From the IMG/VR virus record IMGVR_UViG_3300025093_001726, positions 1-22,107 of that record: a DNA stretch of 22,107 bases; one strand, given 5' to 3'. Below the pieces are notes generated by a model. The model worked only from the letters and a program-made list of their open reading frames with translations. It did not search any database and was not told the DNA's origin. This document shows positions 1,775 to 21,286 of this stretch, in pieces. Numbering within the stretch: position 1 is the stretch's first letter; each line of letters begins with the position of its first letter. Origin of the DNA: a virus. Both the position numbers and the translations under genes were made by a program.

Positions 1775-1803
1775 TTGAAAGCAGGCGCGACCGTCACTAG
1801 ATG
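1775..1803 (+). promoter_or_regulatory. Predicted sigma70-type promoter for the tRNA-like gene
   Basis: TTGAAA (1775-1780; five of six matches to TTGACA), a 17-bp spacer, then TAGATG (1798-1803; three of six matches to TATAAT). Transcription would begin near 1809-1811, a few bases before the 5' end of the tRNA-like gene at 1814. Ideal spacing and position support it, but the -10 box is weak. Confidence 0.5.
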
Positions 1804-1813
1804 CGTGTGATCA

Positions 1814-1903
1814 ACGGGGGTGGCCGAGTGGCTGAAGGCACCTGACTGATAATCAGGCCGACGGGCAACCGTCGCGCGGGTTCGAATCCCGCTCCCCCCG
1901 CCA
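1814..1903 (+). tRNA. Class II tRNA-like gene with isoleucine anticodon GAT and serine-like body
   Basis: A nearly complete cloverleaf on the opposite strand to the phage genes. T8 G9 are at 1821-1822. The D stem is GCC/GGC (1823-1825, 1837-1839). The anticodon stem is CCTGA/TCAGG (1841-1845, 1853-1857) with loop CTGATAA, so the anticodon is GAT (1848-1850). The long variable arm has a 6-bp stem (1859-1864/1869-1874) and a GCAA tetraloop. The T arm is GCGGG-TTCGAAT-CCCGC (1876-1892). A G discriminator (1900) and encoded CCA (1901-1903) follow. The long variable arm, G73 and D-arm sequence are serine-like, whereas the anticodon loop is the canonical isoleucine loop. The acceptor stem is defective: 5' ACGGGGG pairs with 3' TCCCCCC in only five positions (one a G-U), leaving the first two unpaired. 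It may be an active odd tRNA, a decoy, or decaying. Confidence 0.75.
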
Positions 1904-3671: not shown

Positions 3672-5951
3672 TTACCCCGCATATTCAATATCGGCATAGA
3701 TGCCGCTCAAAGCGTCCCGGAGATCAGCCGCCAGCCGTTCCTTGATCATCTGATAGGCTTGCTCCGGATCCGAAACGCCGGAAATGCTGACGCCACCGAG
3801 CTGCAAGGTGAGACCAGCGATCTGCCGCCCACCCAACATGCCCGCCGTTTCCTTGGCGGTGTGCACCCAGCCACTGCCGCCAGGCGTGATCAGCTCTGGG
3901 CCTTCCTCGCCGACCAGATAGGTCTTGCCGCCGACGATGGATCCACCGGCAGCCTGCGCGCCATCGACGGCGAGCGGAACCGGTAGGTCCGGATAGCGCG
4001 GATCGAATTGAGCTGCAGGGCCGGATGGCGCCCCGCCACCCCCGAAGAGCTGGGTCAGCCACGGTGGCAGATTGGCGATGATGAGGCTGCTGATATCGAT
4101 CTTGCCGATCGCATCGAGGATCATCTTCGGCCAGCTGGCGAACCATGCCAGCAGCTCTTCGAACTTGGAGACCAGTCCATCCCAGATGCCTTGAATGATC
4201 TGCACGCCGACGTCGTACATACCGGCGACCGCTCCGGTGATCTCGCCGGGCAGGGCTGTGAACCAGGCGATGATTTCGGCGCCCTTGGTGACCACGGCCA
4301 TGACGGCATTGCCGACAGCGGATCCCGCCGCTTCACCCCAGCCGCGCCAATCCTCGGCACTGGCATCGACCGGACCAAGCAGGCCGGTGATCCAGTCGAG
4401 GATCGCAGCGCCACCATCAATGATCGGCTGGATCGCCGGCATGACGGGTTCGAGGGCCGAGACCAGGCCGGTGCCGAAGCCTTGGAAGAAGCTCACCAGT
4501 CCTTCCCAGTTGTTGTAGATCCACGTACCGGCCGCCGCGATGCCGGCGAGCACCAAGCCAATGCCCGACATCATCAGGGCCAGGCGCAGGGCCATGACAG
4601 CATTCTTGACCAGGTTGAGCGGATTGATCAGGGCAAGGAAGCCAGCAGCGCCCCTGGCCATGATCAGAGCCGCGTCGAGAATGCCGCCCTTCATGAACAG
4701 GAACGCCCAACGGGTCGCGATCGCCGCCACCCGCAAGGCCACCAGCCCACCGACCAGGGCGACAATGGCCTGCACGATTTGAGGGTTCGCGGCCGCCCAG
4801 TCGGCCATCGCGATCAGCACCGGCCCGACGGCTGCGGCCACACCATTGATGGCCGGCAGCAGCGCATTCCCGATCGCAAGGGCAACCCCGTCGACCTGGT
4901 TCTTCAGCCGCTGCAGGTTGAATTCTGTGGTCTGGGCGCGCTTGGCAAATTCCGCCGAGACACTGCCGGCATATTCGGTTTCGTCGGCCACATAGCCCAG
5001 TGTTCGCTCCAGCAATTCCAGATTGCCAAGCAGCGGCGCCAGTGCCCGGGCCTCATCACCGAACAGGTCGCCCATCGTCGCCGCCTGCATTTCTGCCGGC
5101 AGCTGACCCAGGCGGTTGATCACCTCCATCGTGGTGCCGACGGCATCTTGCTGCATGCCGGCCGCCACTTTCGCGGCATCGAGGCCCAGTTTCTTGAAGG
5201 CGCGTTGCTGGGCAGCGGTCGCACTGGTCCCCTTGGTCAGTGCTCGGCCCATGTTACGGAAAGAGGTCGACGCCACCTCAACCTCGGCGCCGGCGCTGAC
5301 CATGGCCGAACCGAAGGCAAGCGTCTCTTCCTTGCTGAAACCGAAGAACTCGCCCTGCGCTGCGACACGCCGCGCGAACTCGGTGAGATCGGGCGCGCTC
5401 GAGGCCGTGCGATCGGACAGATGATTGATCGCGTCGGCATAGAGCATGGTTTCCTCGGTCGAGAGCCGAAGTGCTTCGCGGATCTTGGCCAGATCCTCGC
5501 CCGCCTGTCCGCCCGACACGCCCCAGGCAAGGGCGGCCTTGGCCGTCATGCGGGTGAACTCCAGCAGCTCGCTGTCGGCGATGCCGGCAGCAGCCGCGTT
5601 TTCGGCAAGGGCCGCCAGCTCGGTGACCGCCATGGGGATTTCCGAGGTCGAGAGGCGCCGAAGATCATCGCCGAACTGGGCCAGGCCGCTGTCGCTGAAA
5701 TCGGAAACCTTGGCGACGTCGGCCATTGCGCTTTCAAACGCTACGGCCTTGCCGATCGGATCGGCCAGAGCGCGGCCGAGGGCATAGGCTGCCGCCGCCG
5801 CATCGACCATCTGGCCGCGCATTTCGTTCATCTGCATGGCATTCGCGCGTGACTGCGCCTGCAGGTTCTTGACCACCTGCGCCACGCCGCGCGCCGGGGC
5901 CGAGATCTGGTCGATCAGCGCAACGATGAGCTTGGAAGTGATGACGGCCAA
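3672..5951 (-). CDS. T: Tail tape measure protein (TP901 family; P2 gpT equivalent)
   Basis: A 759-residue tape measure protein (P2 T is 815), which sets tail length and occupies the tube lumen. The N-terminal third is the TP901 core (ESAMADVAKVSDFSD, then LAALAENAAAAG, RAALTKG-like and FGDEARALAPLL motifs). Hydrophobic segments lie at about residues 390-420 and 460-483. The C-terminus carries the common tape-measure ending LVGEEGPELITPGG (about 672-686). The start is TTG at 5951, with AGAGG about 8 bases upstream; no ATG or GTG is better placed. Upstream on the other strand lies a lipoprotein gene that separates T from E/E', unlike the usual contiguous order. Confidence 0.95.
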   Translation of the reverse strand: MAVITSKLIVALIDQISAPARGVAQVVKNLQAQSRANAMQMNEMRGQMVDAAAAAYALGRALADPIGKAVAFESAMADVAKVSDFSDSGLAQFGDDLRRLSTSEIPMAVTELAALAENAAAAGIADSELLEFTRMTAKAALAWGVSGGQAGEDLAKIREALRLSTEETMLYADAINHLSDRTASSAPDLTEFARRVAAQGEFFGFSKEETLAFGSAMVSAGAEVEVASTSFRNMGRALTKGTSATAAQQRAFKKLGLDAAKVAAGMQQDAVGTTMEVINRLGQLPAEMQAATMGDLFGDEARALAPLLGNLELLERTLGYVADETEYAGSVSAEFAKRAQTTEFNLQRLKNQVDGVALAIGNALLPAINGVAAAVGPVLIAMADWAAANPQIVQAIVALVGGLVALRVAAIATRWAFLFMKGGILDAALIMARGAAGFLALINPLNLVKNAVMALRLALMMSGIGLVLAGIAAAGTWIYNNWEGLVSFFQGFGTGLVSALEPVMPAIQPIIDGGAAILDWITGLLGPVDASAEDWRGWGEAAGSAVGNAVMAVVTKGAEIIAWFTALPGEITGAVAGMYDVGVQIIQGIWDGLVSKFEELLAWFASWPKMILDAIGKIDISSLIIANLPPWLTQLFGGGGAPSGPAAQFDPRYPDLPVPLAVDGAQAAGGSIVGGKTYLVGEEGPELITPGGSGWVHTAKETAGMLGGRQIAGLTLQLGGVSISGVSDPEQAYQMIKERLAADLRDALSGIYADIEYAG

Positions 5952-6020: not shown

Positions 6021-6686
6021 ATGAAAAAACTGCTGACGATTTTTGGCGTGGCCGCCTTGTTGGCTGGCTGCAAGGCACAAGAAGTGGAGGTGCGCGTAAG
6101 CACCGCTGATCTACAGGAGGCGCTTGCGGGCGAAGAGGTGGCGGTGCGATTCATCGCTCGCTTCGAGAGTTTCGGCACTCTGGATGACGAAAAGCGACGG
6201 CAGCTCGATCAGGTGCAGGAAATCGTCGAAGGCGCGCTTGAGGTCGAAGACTACAATCTGGTCGCCGACAGCTCCAAAGTGACCATCACGGTTGAGGGCG
6301 AAGTCCCCGTCCATGTTGGTGAACCAGGAAGCCATAGCGATCCATTCGCGCTGTACATTTGGGAAACCAATAACCCGCTGTTGCCCGGCTTTACCCATGC
6401 ACTGCAACTCAACACCGGCAAGGGCTTCGACCAGCTTGAGGCGAGCATGCAGCAGGTCAGCTACATGCTCGCCATCGATGAAGTCCAACCGGTGATGTAC
6501 CGGCTGCGCGCCGACAGTGGTTCGGCCGTTCCTGTTCTGGCAGGAGGTGCACAGCTCGACGGATCGAGCTTTGTCGTGCGCGCCCTCTCAGTCGAGGATG
6601 GAGAGCGCATAAGCTTGACCTTCAAGGGCGGCGCATATGACACAGTCTTCGGTGGCATGTTGCTCGCGCTTCCGAACGGGAAGTAG
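6021..6686 (+). CDS. Putative phage-encoded lipoprotein (moron candidate) on the opposite strand
   Basis: A 221-residue lipoprotein precursor of a family I do not recognise. The signal peptide (residues 1-16, two lysines then a hydrophobic run) ends in lipobox Leu-Ala-Gly-Cys17, and Lys18 at +2 would send it to the outer membrane. The 205-residue mature part is acidic and rich in beta-type segments, without cysteines or TMs. It has an excellent Shine-Dalgarno (GGAGGG, 5 bases before ATG) and a terminator 10 bases after its stop. No strong promoter is visible in 5930-6010; TTGGAA at 5932 with TCAAAT at 5953 is the best weak pair. Orientation against the late operon, insertion between E' and T, and lower-looking GC suggest an acquired gene expressed independently of late genes, perhaps altering the lysogen surface (superinfection exclusion, immune or stress traits). 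Function is unknown. Confidence 0.85.
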   Translation: MKKLLTIFGVAALLAGCKAQEVEVRVSTADLQEALAGEEVAVRFIARFESFGTLDDEKRRQLDQVQEIVEGALEVEDYNLVADSSKVTITVEGEVPVHVGEPGSHSDPFALYIWETNNPLLPGFTHALQLNTGKGFDQLEASMQQVSYMLAIDEVQPVMYRLRADSGSAVPVLAGGAQLDGSSFVVRALSVEDGERISLTFKGGAYDTVFGGMLLALPNGK

Positions 6687-18935: not shown

Positions 18936-20579
18936 TTACAGGCCGGCGTTCTTCCAGGCGAAGCGGGAGTCGACGGCGCCACAACCGAAGTCGTGTTCGA
19001 CCGACATGCCGAAGCCCTGGGTGCCGAACGGCTCTTCCATGCGCACGCGCGGCGCCTCGTAGCCGTCGAGATAGCCCCAACGCCAGTTGCTGCCCATGTC
19101 GGGCGCACCGATCAGATACCAGGCATTGCCCGAGATCTGGCTGGTCTCGACCGGCGTCAGCTTGCCCGAGAACGGGTTCACTGCGCTCGCCGTCGCCGGC
19201 GTGATCGTGGCCAGCAGCTTTTCCGCCTCGGTCGACTTGTCGGGACCGGTCAGCAGGAAGCGCGGGCTGTTTGACAGCAGCGGGTTGCCATCCTTGGACT
19301 TCTGCTTGCCCATGGCCGCGCGGCCCTTGCCGATATTGTCCACGTCGATGGCGCTGGCCGTGCCGAGGTTGTTGTGATCGGCATGGAATACGGTCTTGCC
19401 GTCGGCGAGCTTGGCGTTGAAGGCCAGCGAGTAGAAGGTGATCTCTTCGAACAGGGCCACCGTGGCGCCGTAGCTCGACAGCAGATCCGCGATCGCGCCC
19501 AGGTCATCGTTGATGAGCATCTGACGGGTGATCTGGATCCGCCGCGCATAGCTGAAGGCCTGGGTGGTTTCCTTGCCTTCCCCGAAGGTGCCGGCCTTGA
19601 TTTCGCCGGTCTCGAGAACCTTTTCGAGCATCGGGAAGTCGCCGACGCTCACCGAGGTATGCGGACGGAAATCGCGATAGTTGCGCTGCCGGGTGAAGGG
19701 CTTGAACGTCGGCTGTGCCAGGGCGTAGCGGCCTTCAAGGGTGCGGTTGAGGGCGTTTTCGAAGATCGCCGGGAAATCCGAGGTGGAGTGCGAAGCACGG
19801 GTCAGGATTTCGTCGATCTGGCGGGCGTTGAGAATGCGTCCGCCGCGATAATTGATGCTCTCTGCCGCGAGGTCAATCACGCCGCGCCCCATGAACTGAC
19901 GGGCAGCTTCGGACGGACCAGCTTCCGGAACGCGGACGCCCAGACCATAGGACAGCGCCTCGGTCATCGCGGCGCGCGTGACTTCCGTCGCGTCGGTGCC
20001 AACCTGCACGCGGGTATTGCCGTTGACCGGTGCCTGGCTGCCGACCATCTGGTCGAACAGCTGGGCACGGAAAGCGTCGACCGTGACATTGCCGTCAATG
20101 GCGGCGCGGGTCAGGTCGGTGCGGCCGGCGCGAGCTGCCAGGTCCATGATCGTGGTAACGCGGGCGGTTTCAGCGGCGCGGGTGGCCTCGACGTTCGGCT
20201 GCTGCGGCGCCGGTGCGGGATCCTCATCAGTCTCGCCAGCGGCTTCACGCTGCTTGATTTCCATCGACAGCGCGCGGATCTGGCCGAGCAGGGTTTCGTG
20301 CTCGCCCTCGATCATGCGGACCTTGTCCGGTTCGAGGCCGTCGGTCAGCTCGGCGATCTTGGCCGTCGCCTTAGCCTGCAAATCGGTGAGGTTGGTGCGC
20401 AGCACTGCCAGTGGCGTGAAGGCCAGGGCATGGGGCGCATTGGCGAAGGCATCGTTGAGCATATGCCCGGCGGCTGCCATGTGTTGGGTTGCGTTGAGGG
20501 CATCGGGCAGAAGCGTGAACGTGGCGAACAGAGCGACGGCCAGCATCAGGCCTACCGCCAAGAAAGTCTTGGTTTTCAT
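18936..20579 (-). CDS. Major capsid protein (Mu gpT-like) with hydrophobic N-terminus
   Basis: A 547-residue major head subunit. The C-terminal two thirds match the Mu gpT-like capsid type: RNYRDFRPHTSVSVGDFPMLEKVLETGEIK, QITRQMLINDDLGAIADL, ADGKTVFHADHNNL (about 394-407, a hallmark of this group) and the GYEAPRVRMEEPFGTQGFGMSVEHDFGCGAVD ending. Residues about 55-110 are a likely coiled coil; VTTIMDLAARAGRTDLTRAAIDGNVTVDAFRAQLFDQ (about 143-180) matches the linker of known protease-capsid fusion proteins. The N-terminus is a signal-like segment (KTK then a hydrophobic run to about residue 24), unusual for a capsid protein. ATG 20579 has GGAGA at good spacing, so this start is credible. Confidence 0.92.
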   Translation of the reverse strand: MKTKTFLAVGLMLAVALFATFTLLPDALNATQHMAAAGHMLNDAFANAPHALAFTPLAVLRTNLTDLQAKATAKIAELTDGLEPDKVRMIEGEHETLLGQIRALSMEIKQREAAGETDEDPAPAPQQPNVEATRAAETARVTTIMDLAARAGRTDLTRAAIDGNVTVDAFRAQLFDQMVGSQAPVNGNTRVQVGTDATEVTRAAMTEALSYGLGVRVPEAGPSEAARQFMGRGVIDLAAESINYRGGRILNARQIDEILTRASHSTSDFPAIFENALNRTLEGRYALAQPTFKPFTRQRNYRDFRPHTSVSVGDFPMLEKVLETGEIKAGTFGEGKETTQAFSYARRIQITRQMLINDDLGAIADLLSSYGATVALFEEITFYSLAFNAKLADGKTVFHADHNNLGTASAIDVDNIGKGRAAMGKQKSKDGNPLLSNSPRFLLTGPDKSTEAEKLLATITPATASAVNPFSGKLTPVETSQISGNAWYLIGAPDMGSNWRWGYLDGYEAPRVRMEEPFGTQGFGMSVEHDFGCGAVDSRFAWKNAGL

Positions 20580-20659: not shown

Positions 20660-21286
20660 TCAGATCCCGGACTGGGCCTGACGCATGCGCATGCGGGCGG
20701 CAGCGACCGCAGCGGCGGAATTGTCCAGCTCGACATCGAAGAGCTGCTTGGGGTCATCGGCCCGCACGCCCGAAGCGTGATCGGCGGGCACGGTGACGAA
20801 AGAGATCTCGGTGGGGGTCCAACGCTGGGCGATGACCTTCTGCACCTCGCCGCGCTTTTCCGGCTCGATGATCTTGATCTTCTGCAGGGTGTAGCCGGCC
20901 GAGACGTTGCGCACGATGCCGTCGGCGATCAGGCCAAACAGCCGGTCGGCGTCGGGGTCGATGCCGGCAGCGGGAAAGCGCAGCAGAGCCCGCGCCTCGG
21001 TGCCCTCGATCCATGCCTTATCGACCACGCCACGCTGGCTGCTGGTCGAGTAGCGCGCGTGGCTGTCAAGAACCGGCGCGCCGGCATTGAGCCGGGTGAA
21101 GTCGATCGCCGACTTGCTGATGGTCAGGATCTCGTCAAAGTCGATTACGCGATCCCAGCCTTCGTAGCGGCGGCGGCGAACCGGCGTTTCGGTGGCAAAG
21201 ACCACTTCGACCGTCCGCTTGTCCGGGTCGACCTGGTTGGTGCTGGCAAAGGCACGCACCTGCATGGGAAGAGACGACAGGGTCAT
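20660..21286 (-). CDS. HK97-type prohead protease
   Basis: A 208-residue serine protease of the HK97 prohead protease family (peptidase U35), which cleaves scaffold parts during head maturation. The catalytic pattern is visible: His76 in GAPVLDSHARYS and Ser129 in DGIVRNVSAGY, with the typical TRLNAGAPVLDSH block before and WTPTEISFVTVPADHASGVRA after. The sequence matches the N-terminal half of 'prohead protease/major capsid fusion' proteins, yet here it ends in its own stop and the capsid gene follows 80 bp later. The ATG overlaps the portal stop by four bases. The C-terminal RMRMRQAQSGI tail is basic. Confidence 0.92.
   Translation of the reverse strand: MTLSSLPMQVRAFASTNQVDPDKRTVEVVFATETPVRRRRYEGWDRVIDFDEILTISKSAIDFTRLNAGAPVLDSHARYSTSSQRGVVDKAWIEGTEARALLRFPAAGIDPDADRLFGLIADGIVRNVSAGYTLQKIKIIEPEKRGEVQKVIAQRWTPTEISFVTVPADHASGVRADDPKQLFDVELDNSAAAVAAARMRMRQAQSGI

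Follow-up and report, generated by a model that had tools for sequence, protein, structure and literature searches.

A phage-borne serine-type tRNA-like gene with an isoleucine anticodon and an opened acceptor stem, probably a tRNA mimic that takes no part in translation

Phage tRNAs are mostly read as translation helpers or as replacements for tRNAs lost to host defence. Here we describe a class II tRNA-like gene with the isoleucine anticodon GAU at positions 1814–1903 (+) of a 22,107-base phage fragment (IMG/VR record IMGVR_UViG_3300025093_001726; this whole stretch is called the window), and compare it with the closest described systems. In E. coli, the allo-tRNA-UAU group proved unusable in translation (Mukai et al. 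2017, reviewed in PMC7609411). The window RNA resembles this group in its serine-type class II body, isoleucine anticodon, stem-destabilising changes and proposed link to mobile elements. However, the defining feature of allo-tRNAs is their 12-bp acceptor branch (8/4 or 9/3), whereas the window RNA is 7/5 in length with a mispaired top, carries GAU and is borne by a phage. Identity with the allo-tRNAs was rejected, since the sequence is not compatible with 8/4 or 9/3 folding. The tRNAOther of Bacillus cereus (PMC3399842) is likewise a pseudo-tRNA on mobile DNA with no function in translation; this likeness is one of description. tRNAOther belongs to a different species and lies within longer transcripts, whereas the window RNA would be near-leaderless judging by its promoter box. 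The tRNA-Tyr genes of T5 and SP15, set against retron-Eco7 (PMC11555353; hypothesis paper PMC10264068), share a proposed purpose with the window gene, that of phage tRNA genes facing a tRNA-targeting defence. These tRNAs are functional replacements with normal acceptors, but since the window RNA seems unsuited to charging, its only possible action would be that of a decoy or a regulator. Phages with tRNA-dependent lysogeny (PMC10865867) are also temperate and carry a tRNA gene, which matters there for lysogeny; such a role is unlikely for a mispaired GAU class II RNA. Both tRNA-dependent lysogeny and an attachment-site relic were rejected, because the full-length RNA lies in the late gene cluster of the window, away from an integrase.

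The best DNA match of the window tRNA in a named phage is the tRNA-Ser(ACU) of Rhizobium phage RHph_TM30 (L220, 496–585). The two anticodon arms are identical save for the anticodon itself; however, the acceptor of the RHph_TM30 tRNA (GGAGAGG/CCTCTCC) is fully paired and its anticodon is a serine one, whereas the window RNA is mispaired and carries GAU. The A at position 34 of the ACU anticodon is unusual in bacteria. In the open-licence literature, no paper was found that describes class II phage tRNAs with GAU and an open acceptor.

ARAGORN calls a single tRNA in the window, tRNA-Ile(gat), and the Rfam tRNA model matches the same 90 nt, which include an encoded CCA, with 46.8 bits (E = 2.6e-7). 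Compared with serine tRNAs, the D arm (GCCGAGTGGCTGAAGGC, 1823–1839, stem GCC/GGC) is of the serine type, with C11–G24 kept. The anticodon arm CCTGA-CTGATAA-TCAGG occupies 1841–1857, with the anticodon GAT at 1848–1850, and is followed by the long variable arm CGACGG-GCAA-CCGTCG (1859–1874, 6-bp stem and GCAA loop) and by the T arm GCGGG-TTCGAAT-CCCGC (1876–1892), whose stem is intact; all arms lie on the + strand. A single base, position 48, separates the variable stem from the T stem. The anticodon GAU differs by one base from that of tRNA-Ser(GCU). A sequence-only reading of this DNA had proposed a phage-borne class II serine-type body with an isoleucine anticodon, and ARAGORN, Rfam and our drawing of the arms agree with it, down to the encoded G73 and CCA, the CTGATAA loop and the spacing at position 48. 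The class II GAU call goes beyond chance, because the homologues described below show compensatory stem changes. The statement of the sequence-only reading that these four arms fold well holds; it had omitted the acceptor stem, whose defect makes the RNA more interesting.

In the acceptor stem, A1 and C2 of the 5' strand ACGGGGG (positions 1–7; 1814–1820, +) are mismatched with C72 and C71 of the 3' strand TCCCCCC (positions 66–72; 1893–1899, +), and G7·U66 is a wobble pair. The G73 and the encoded CCA follow at 1900–1903 (+). In the minimum free energy structure from RNAfold, the acceptor slips by one base and forms the pairs C2–G73 to G7–C68, which leaves U66 and C67 bulged and the discriminator no longer free. 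Two of the homologues, L004 and L029, are predicted to slip in the same way. The acceptor can thus be laid out either as a 7/5-length branch with a mispaired top or as 6 bp in the shifted register.

IMG/VR was scanned with the acceptor and D-arm sequences, leaving the anticodon unconstrained. The scan returned three loci (L004, L029 and L040), all with GAU. L004 is a prophage of Agrobacterium rosae NCPPB 1650, present in GTDB as L054, and is one example of an isolate that carries the gene. L029 is related to Rhizobium phage vB_RleM_PPF1, with a DUF5131 protein that is 81% identical, and its tRNA lies within a replaced segment flanked by two conserved genes of that phage. The RNA of L040 is antisense within the end of a DNA-methylase open reading frame (ORF) and has lost U33, giving the anticodon loop CCGATAC. 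Across the four aligned loci, which are Hyphomicrobiales-type phages or prophages, the acceptor ACGGGGG/TCCCCCCG-CCA is identical, mismatches included, and 8 of the 26 pairs have changed on both sides, in the anticodon, variable and T stems. A decaying gene had been expected to lack homologues and to show random mutations in its arms; instead, homologues exist and the arms covary. The marks of a pseudo-tRNA, mismatches over all stems with no compensatory changes, are likewise not what these loci show. In a broad class-level sampling of genomes, the ACGGGGG type was found in 1 of 385, the member already known.

The wider group was collected from IMG/VR and from about 85,000 species genomes with a pattern combining the serine-type D arm with GAU. 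The species genomes gave 13 matches, in Agrobacterium, another Rhizobiales bacterium, Pseudomonas, Cohnella, Schwartzia, Acidobacteria, Bacteroidetes, Chloroflexi, Gemmatimonas and others, and more class II GAU tRNAs were found in IMG/VR; a prophage location is not clear for every member. Among 23 distinct GAU class II RNAs, the pair 2:71 is unpaired in 78% and 1:72 in 52% (with G·U in a further 26%), 3:70 is unpaired in 26%, and pairs 4–7 are unpaired in 0–4%; the anticodon and T stems are nearly intact. None of 18 class II controls with other anticodons has a broken acceptor pair (p = 9e-10 for the difference in mispairing). The open end is reached by two routes, either by changes in the 5' strand with the 3' CCGCCA kept or by changes in the 3' strand with the 5' GG kept, which points to selection on the open state itself. 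Many relatives have neither G73 nor an encoded CCA, and position 73 may be G, T, A or C. A terminator-like hairpin lies directly 3' of the RNA in many of them.

The coupling between anticodon and acceptor is not an artefact of the search pattern, as shown by two scans that were blind to the anticodon. The first, for the '..CCYTATT' acceptor type, returned four loci, all GAU. The second fixed only the 5' strand and the D arm and left the 3' strand free. Among the matches listed, at least 72 distinct RNAs were parsed, 6 of them open (four GAU, two GAA) and 66 closed; the closed ones comprise 65 with other anticodons, mostly Ser, and one GAU RNA (L027, with two G·U and one A·A). An open acceptor therefore occurs in 6/7 of the GAU/GAA RNAs and in 0/65 of those with other anticodons among the matches listed (Fisher p = 4e-8, with relatives that are not independent). 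An open acceptor top together with GAU or GAA recurs in unrelated phages and prophages of several phyla, and makes a simple signature that can be checked.

A scan for GAA, GAC and GAG found only GAA; the three distinct RNAs recovered each combine an open acceptor with a terminator-like hairpin. The loci L145, L160, L228 and L229 are class II with the phenylalanine anticodon GAA, an open acceptor top, no CCA and a terminator directly downstream, and are the same kind as the GAU RNAs. One GAA member scored far below threshold with the sX4 sRNA model. Phage class II RNAs with the asparagine anticodon GUU (L058, L064, L069, L075, L133, L141 and L157) have a serine-like body, G73 and normal acceptors, and possibly represent a real Ser/Asn isotype mismatch. 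A further observation from these searches is that several prophage contigs carry 5' halves of tRNA-Ser(UGA) (for example L264, L272 and L279) that end at the anticodon loop and continue into unrelated DNA, which suggests that they were left by integration into the anticodon arm.

We compared the window RNA with the determinants of charging. Bacterial serine identity comprises G73, C72, G2–C71, R4–Y69, C11–G24, the long arm and G30–C40, and C2–G71 is an antideterminant against SerRS (PMC9976931). The window RNA keeps every element of this set except G2–C71, in place of which it has C2. With respect to functional tRNA-Ser, it has the long variable arm, C11–G24 and G73, but it lacks the G1–C72 and G2–C71 pairs and its anticodon does not read a serine codon. 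Isoleucine identity resides in the anticodon together with t6A37, with contributions from the discriminator and minor stem elements (PMC9976931). The window RNA has GAU with A37 and A38. Known bacterial isoleucine tRNAs have A73 as the discriminator and a class I variable loop; the window RNA has G73 and a long arm, with G4–C69 and U29–A41 in place of C4–G69 and C29–G41. Mispairing at 1:72 is also expected to weaken EF-Tu binding. The phage uses 270 AUC and 56 AUU codons (326) in 19 genes, AUC accounting for 270 of 335 isoleucine codons. These codons align with I, V or L of relatives, and serine occurs at 0 of 290 aligned positions. AUC and AUU are thus isoleucine in this phage, and their reassignment to serine was rejected. 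Efficient serine insertion is unlikely, since G2–C71 is lost, the mispaired acceptor is conserved and AUC/AUU behave as isoleucine; isoleucine charging is unlikely as well, given the missing A73 and stem determinants of isoleucine identity and a position 73 that varies among relatives. An initiator-like role for the open 1:72 was rejected, because the anticodon stem CCTGA/TCAGG lacks three G–C pairs at 29–31/39–41.

We read the RNA as a maintained, non-elongator tRNA mimic, with a probability of about 0.7. The best explanation as a whole, which we hold tentatively and at a little under even odds, is that a stand-alone moron gene encodes a tRNA-shaped small RNA that has been withdrawn from translation and maintained so, with a decoy-type action. 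The RNA would be made from the promoter-like box at its fixed distance as a near-leaderless transcript, would not be usefully charged by SerRS or IleRS, and would act in trans, tying up a factor whose recognition site is the tRNA body or the anticodon loop. This factor would most likely be a nuclease or toxin that attacks tRNAs, either the host's own or a rival's, and it would bind or cut the mimic instead of a functional tRNA. tRNA-Ile is a real nuclease target, cut by CdiA-CT EC3006 (PMC9424206), and phages counter tRNA nucleases with tRNAs (PMC11555353); together these would make a decoy the most natural use. The decoy role specifically is plausible, although we would place it short of an even chance. 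The sequence-only reading had offered a decoy or regulatory RNA as its last branch, and this branch fares well in so far as the RNA reads as a mimic, the decoy itself being a further, conditional step. It is plausible, again at less than even odds, that the group forms an unnamed class of tRNA mimics in phages and prophages of several phyla, with serine bodies, GAU or GAA and the last two or three acceptor pairs opened so that they cannot be charged, which serve as anticodon decoys in conflicts over tRNAs. If the reading as a mimic is true, a mismatched isotype and a spoiled acceptor would indicate a use of phage tRNA genes other than the customary ones, namely a tRNA-shaped RNA selected not to translate.

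Several points weigh against this reading. E. coli SerRS depends mainly on the variable arm, and the mispaired acceptor may therefore still allow some serylation. If the mimic drew off a tRNA-Ile nuclease, one might expect it to have an isoleucine body, not a serine one. Two GAU class II RNAs have paired acceptors, fully so in L012 and also in L023, which comes from a 237-kb phage and was not read by the parser; a third, L055, is ambiguous owing to a deletion in the T stem. Our search patterns all fix a serine-type D arm, and any class I mimics were missed. No tRNA nuclease, anticodon nuclease or antitoxin was found beside the RNA with Pfam and PADLOC at three sister loci, where only DUF5131 and DNA methylases were recovered; the flanks of other members have no match in named phages or E. 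coli. The window itself is an IMG/VR fragment without a host genome.

The RNA could instead be a decaying pseudo-tRNA or hitch-hiking relic, in which GAU variants persist only with a dead acceptor because a live one would be toxic. The loss of U33 in L040, the rarity of such RNAs in species genomes and a tRNA-Tyr-like element that occupies this slot in a sister phage (L035) and has no Rfam match even at E = 0.01 are in keeping with decay. However, decay would be expected to affect every stem and to produce open-acceptor copies with serine anticodons too, neither of which is seen, and the eight pairs changed on both sides and the fixed-distance promoter box argue for constraint; we consider decay unlikely. 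Serine insertion at AUC/AUU, which the sequence-only reading had put forward, would survive in a weak form if SerRS charged the RNA via the long variable arm at a low rate and the mispairing damped the toxicity. All serine elements but one are present, and allo-tRNAs with non-serine anticodons insert serine in E. coli (PMC7609411). With G2–C71 lost, the acceptor conserved in its mispaired form and G73 and the encoded CCA missing in many relatives, serine insertion does not stand as the main role; efficient insertion would, moreover, harm most phage proteins, and even a weak inserter is rather unlikely.

A regulatory RNA would use the tRNA fold to stay stable or to bind proteins, and would act through base pairing or by titrating SerRS or a processing or modification enzyme. 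The near-leaderless unit, convergent with its neighbours, would suit this, and tRNAOther of B. cereus, itself non-translating, acts as a component of a regulatory RNA (PMC3399842). This account offers no reason for the restriction of the anticodon to GAU/GAA when the stem sequences drift, and we regard it as quite unlikely. Regulation in cis of a downstream gene was rejected, as the gene that follows runs towards the RNA in the window and at most of the loci examined. Least probable, and very unlikely, is that IleRS recognises the anticodon and charges the RNA as a class II isoleucine tRNA, which would supply isoleucine while escaping host nucleases. The G34-A35-U36-A37-A38 stretch is intact, anticodon and t6A37 being strong isoleucine determinants, and AUC is the main isoleucine codon of the phage. 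However, A73, C4–G69, C29–G41 and the determinant at 12–23 are absent, position 73 varies among relatives and the 1:72 mispairing would lower EF-Tu binding; the new form of isoleucine tRNA once suggested for this gene is thus unlikely.

Upstream of the gene, a putative −35 box TTGAAA lies at 1775–1780 (+), with its first T 39 nt before position 1. A weak putative −10 box, TAGATG, may follow at 1798–1803 (+) after a 17-nt spacer, ending 10 nt before position 1; a sigma-70 consensus promoter scan of the window did not call it. The motif CTTG[A/C]AA occurs at the identical offset in all four loci, with TTG 39 nt before position 1, and the upstream regions are otherwise unrelated (crude chance estimate p ~ 6e-13, independence assumed). 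A usual promoter layout would give a leader of about 0–4 nt, that is, a near-leaderless transcript.

The window phage is temperate and, by gene content, a P2-type contractile-tail phage (gpU, tail tube, tail assembly chaperone, sheath, gpD-like hub and baseplate), with further genes for a major head protein and protease, amidase, holin and spanin. The closest relatives of its proteins are in Ochrobactrum, Rhizobium, Methylobacterium and Aurantimonas; therefore, a Hyphomicrobiales host is likely. The tRNA-like gene sits between the amidase/endolysin gene (963–1721, −) and the gpD-like tail protein gene (1912–2994, −), on the strand opposite to both, convergent with the latter and 8 bp from its stop; an intrinsic terminator of the opposite-strand tail operon lies upstream of the tRNA at 1732–1753 (−). 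Sister phages carry other cargo in this interval, which is therefore a moron slot: L034, with a 96% identical gpD, has a small ORF that is DUF1232-like by eye, L037 has a tRNA-Cys (6403–6477, −) plus a small ORF, and L035 has the tRNA-Tyr-like element. The latter (4347–4418, −) is tRNA-Tyr(GTA)-like with a class I body, no CCA and TTGAAG 38 nt upstream, and is called by ARAGORN but not by Rfam. Elsewhere in the window, a lone forward ORF of 221 amino acids (6021–6686, +) with a lipoprotein-like signal (MKKLLTIFGVAALLAGC) and no Pfam match lies within the reverse-strand tail cluster and is possibly a second moron. Lastly, the protease and major head protein are two ORFs in the window (18936–20579 and 20660–21286, −), whereas they are fused in the family PHROG 4523.
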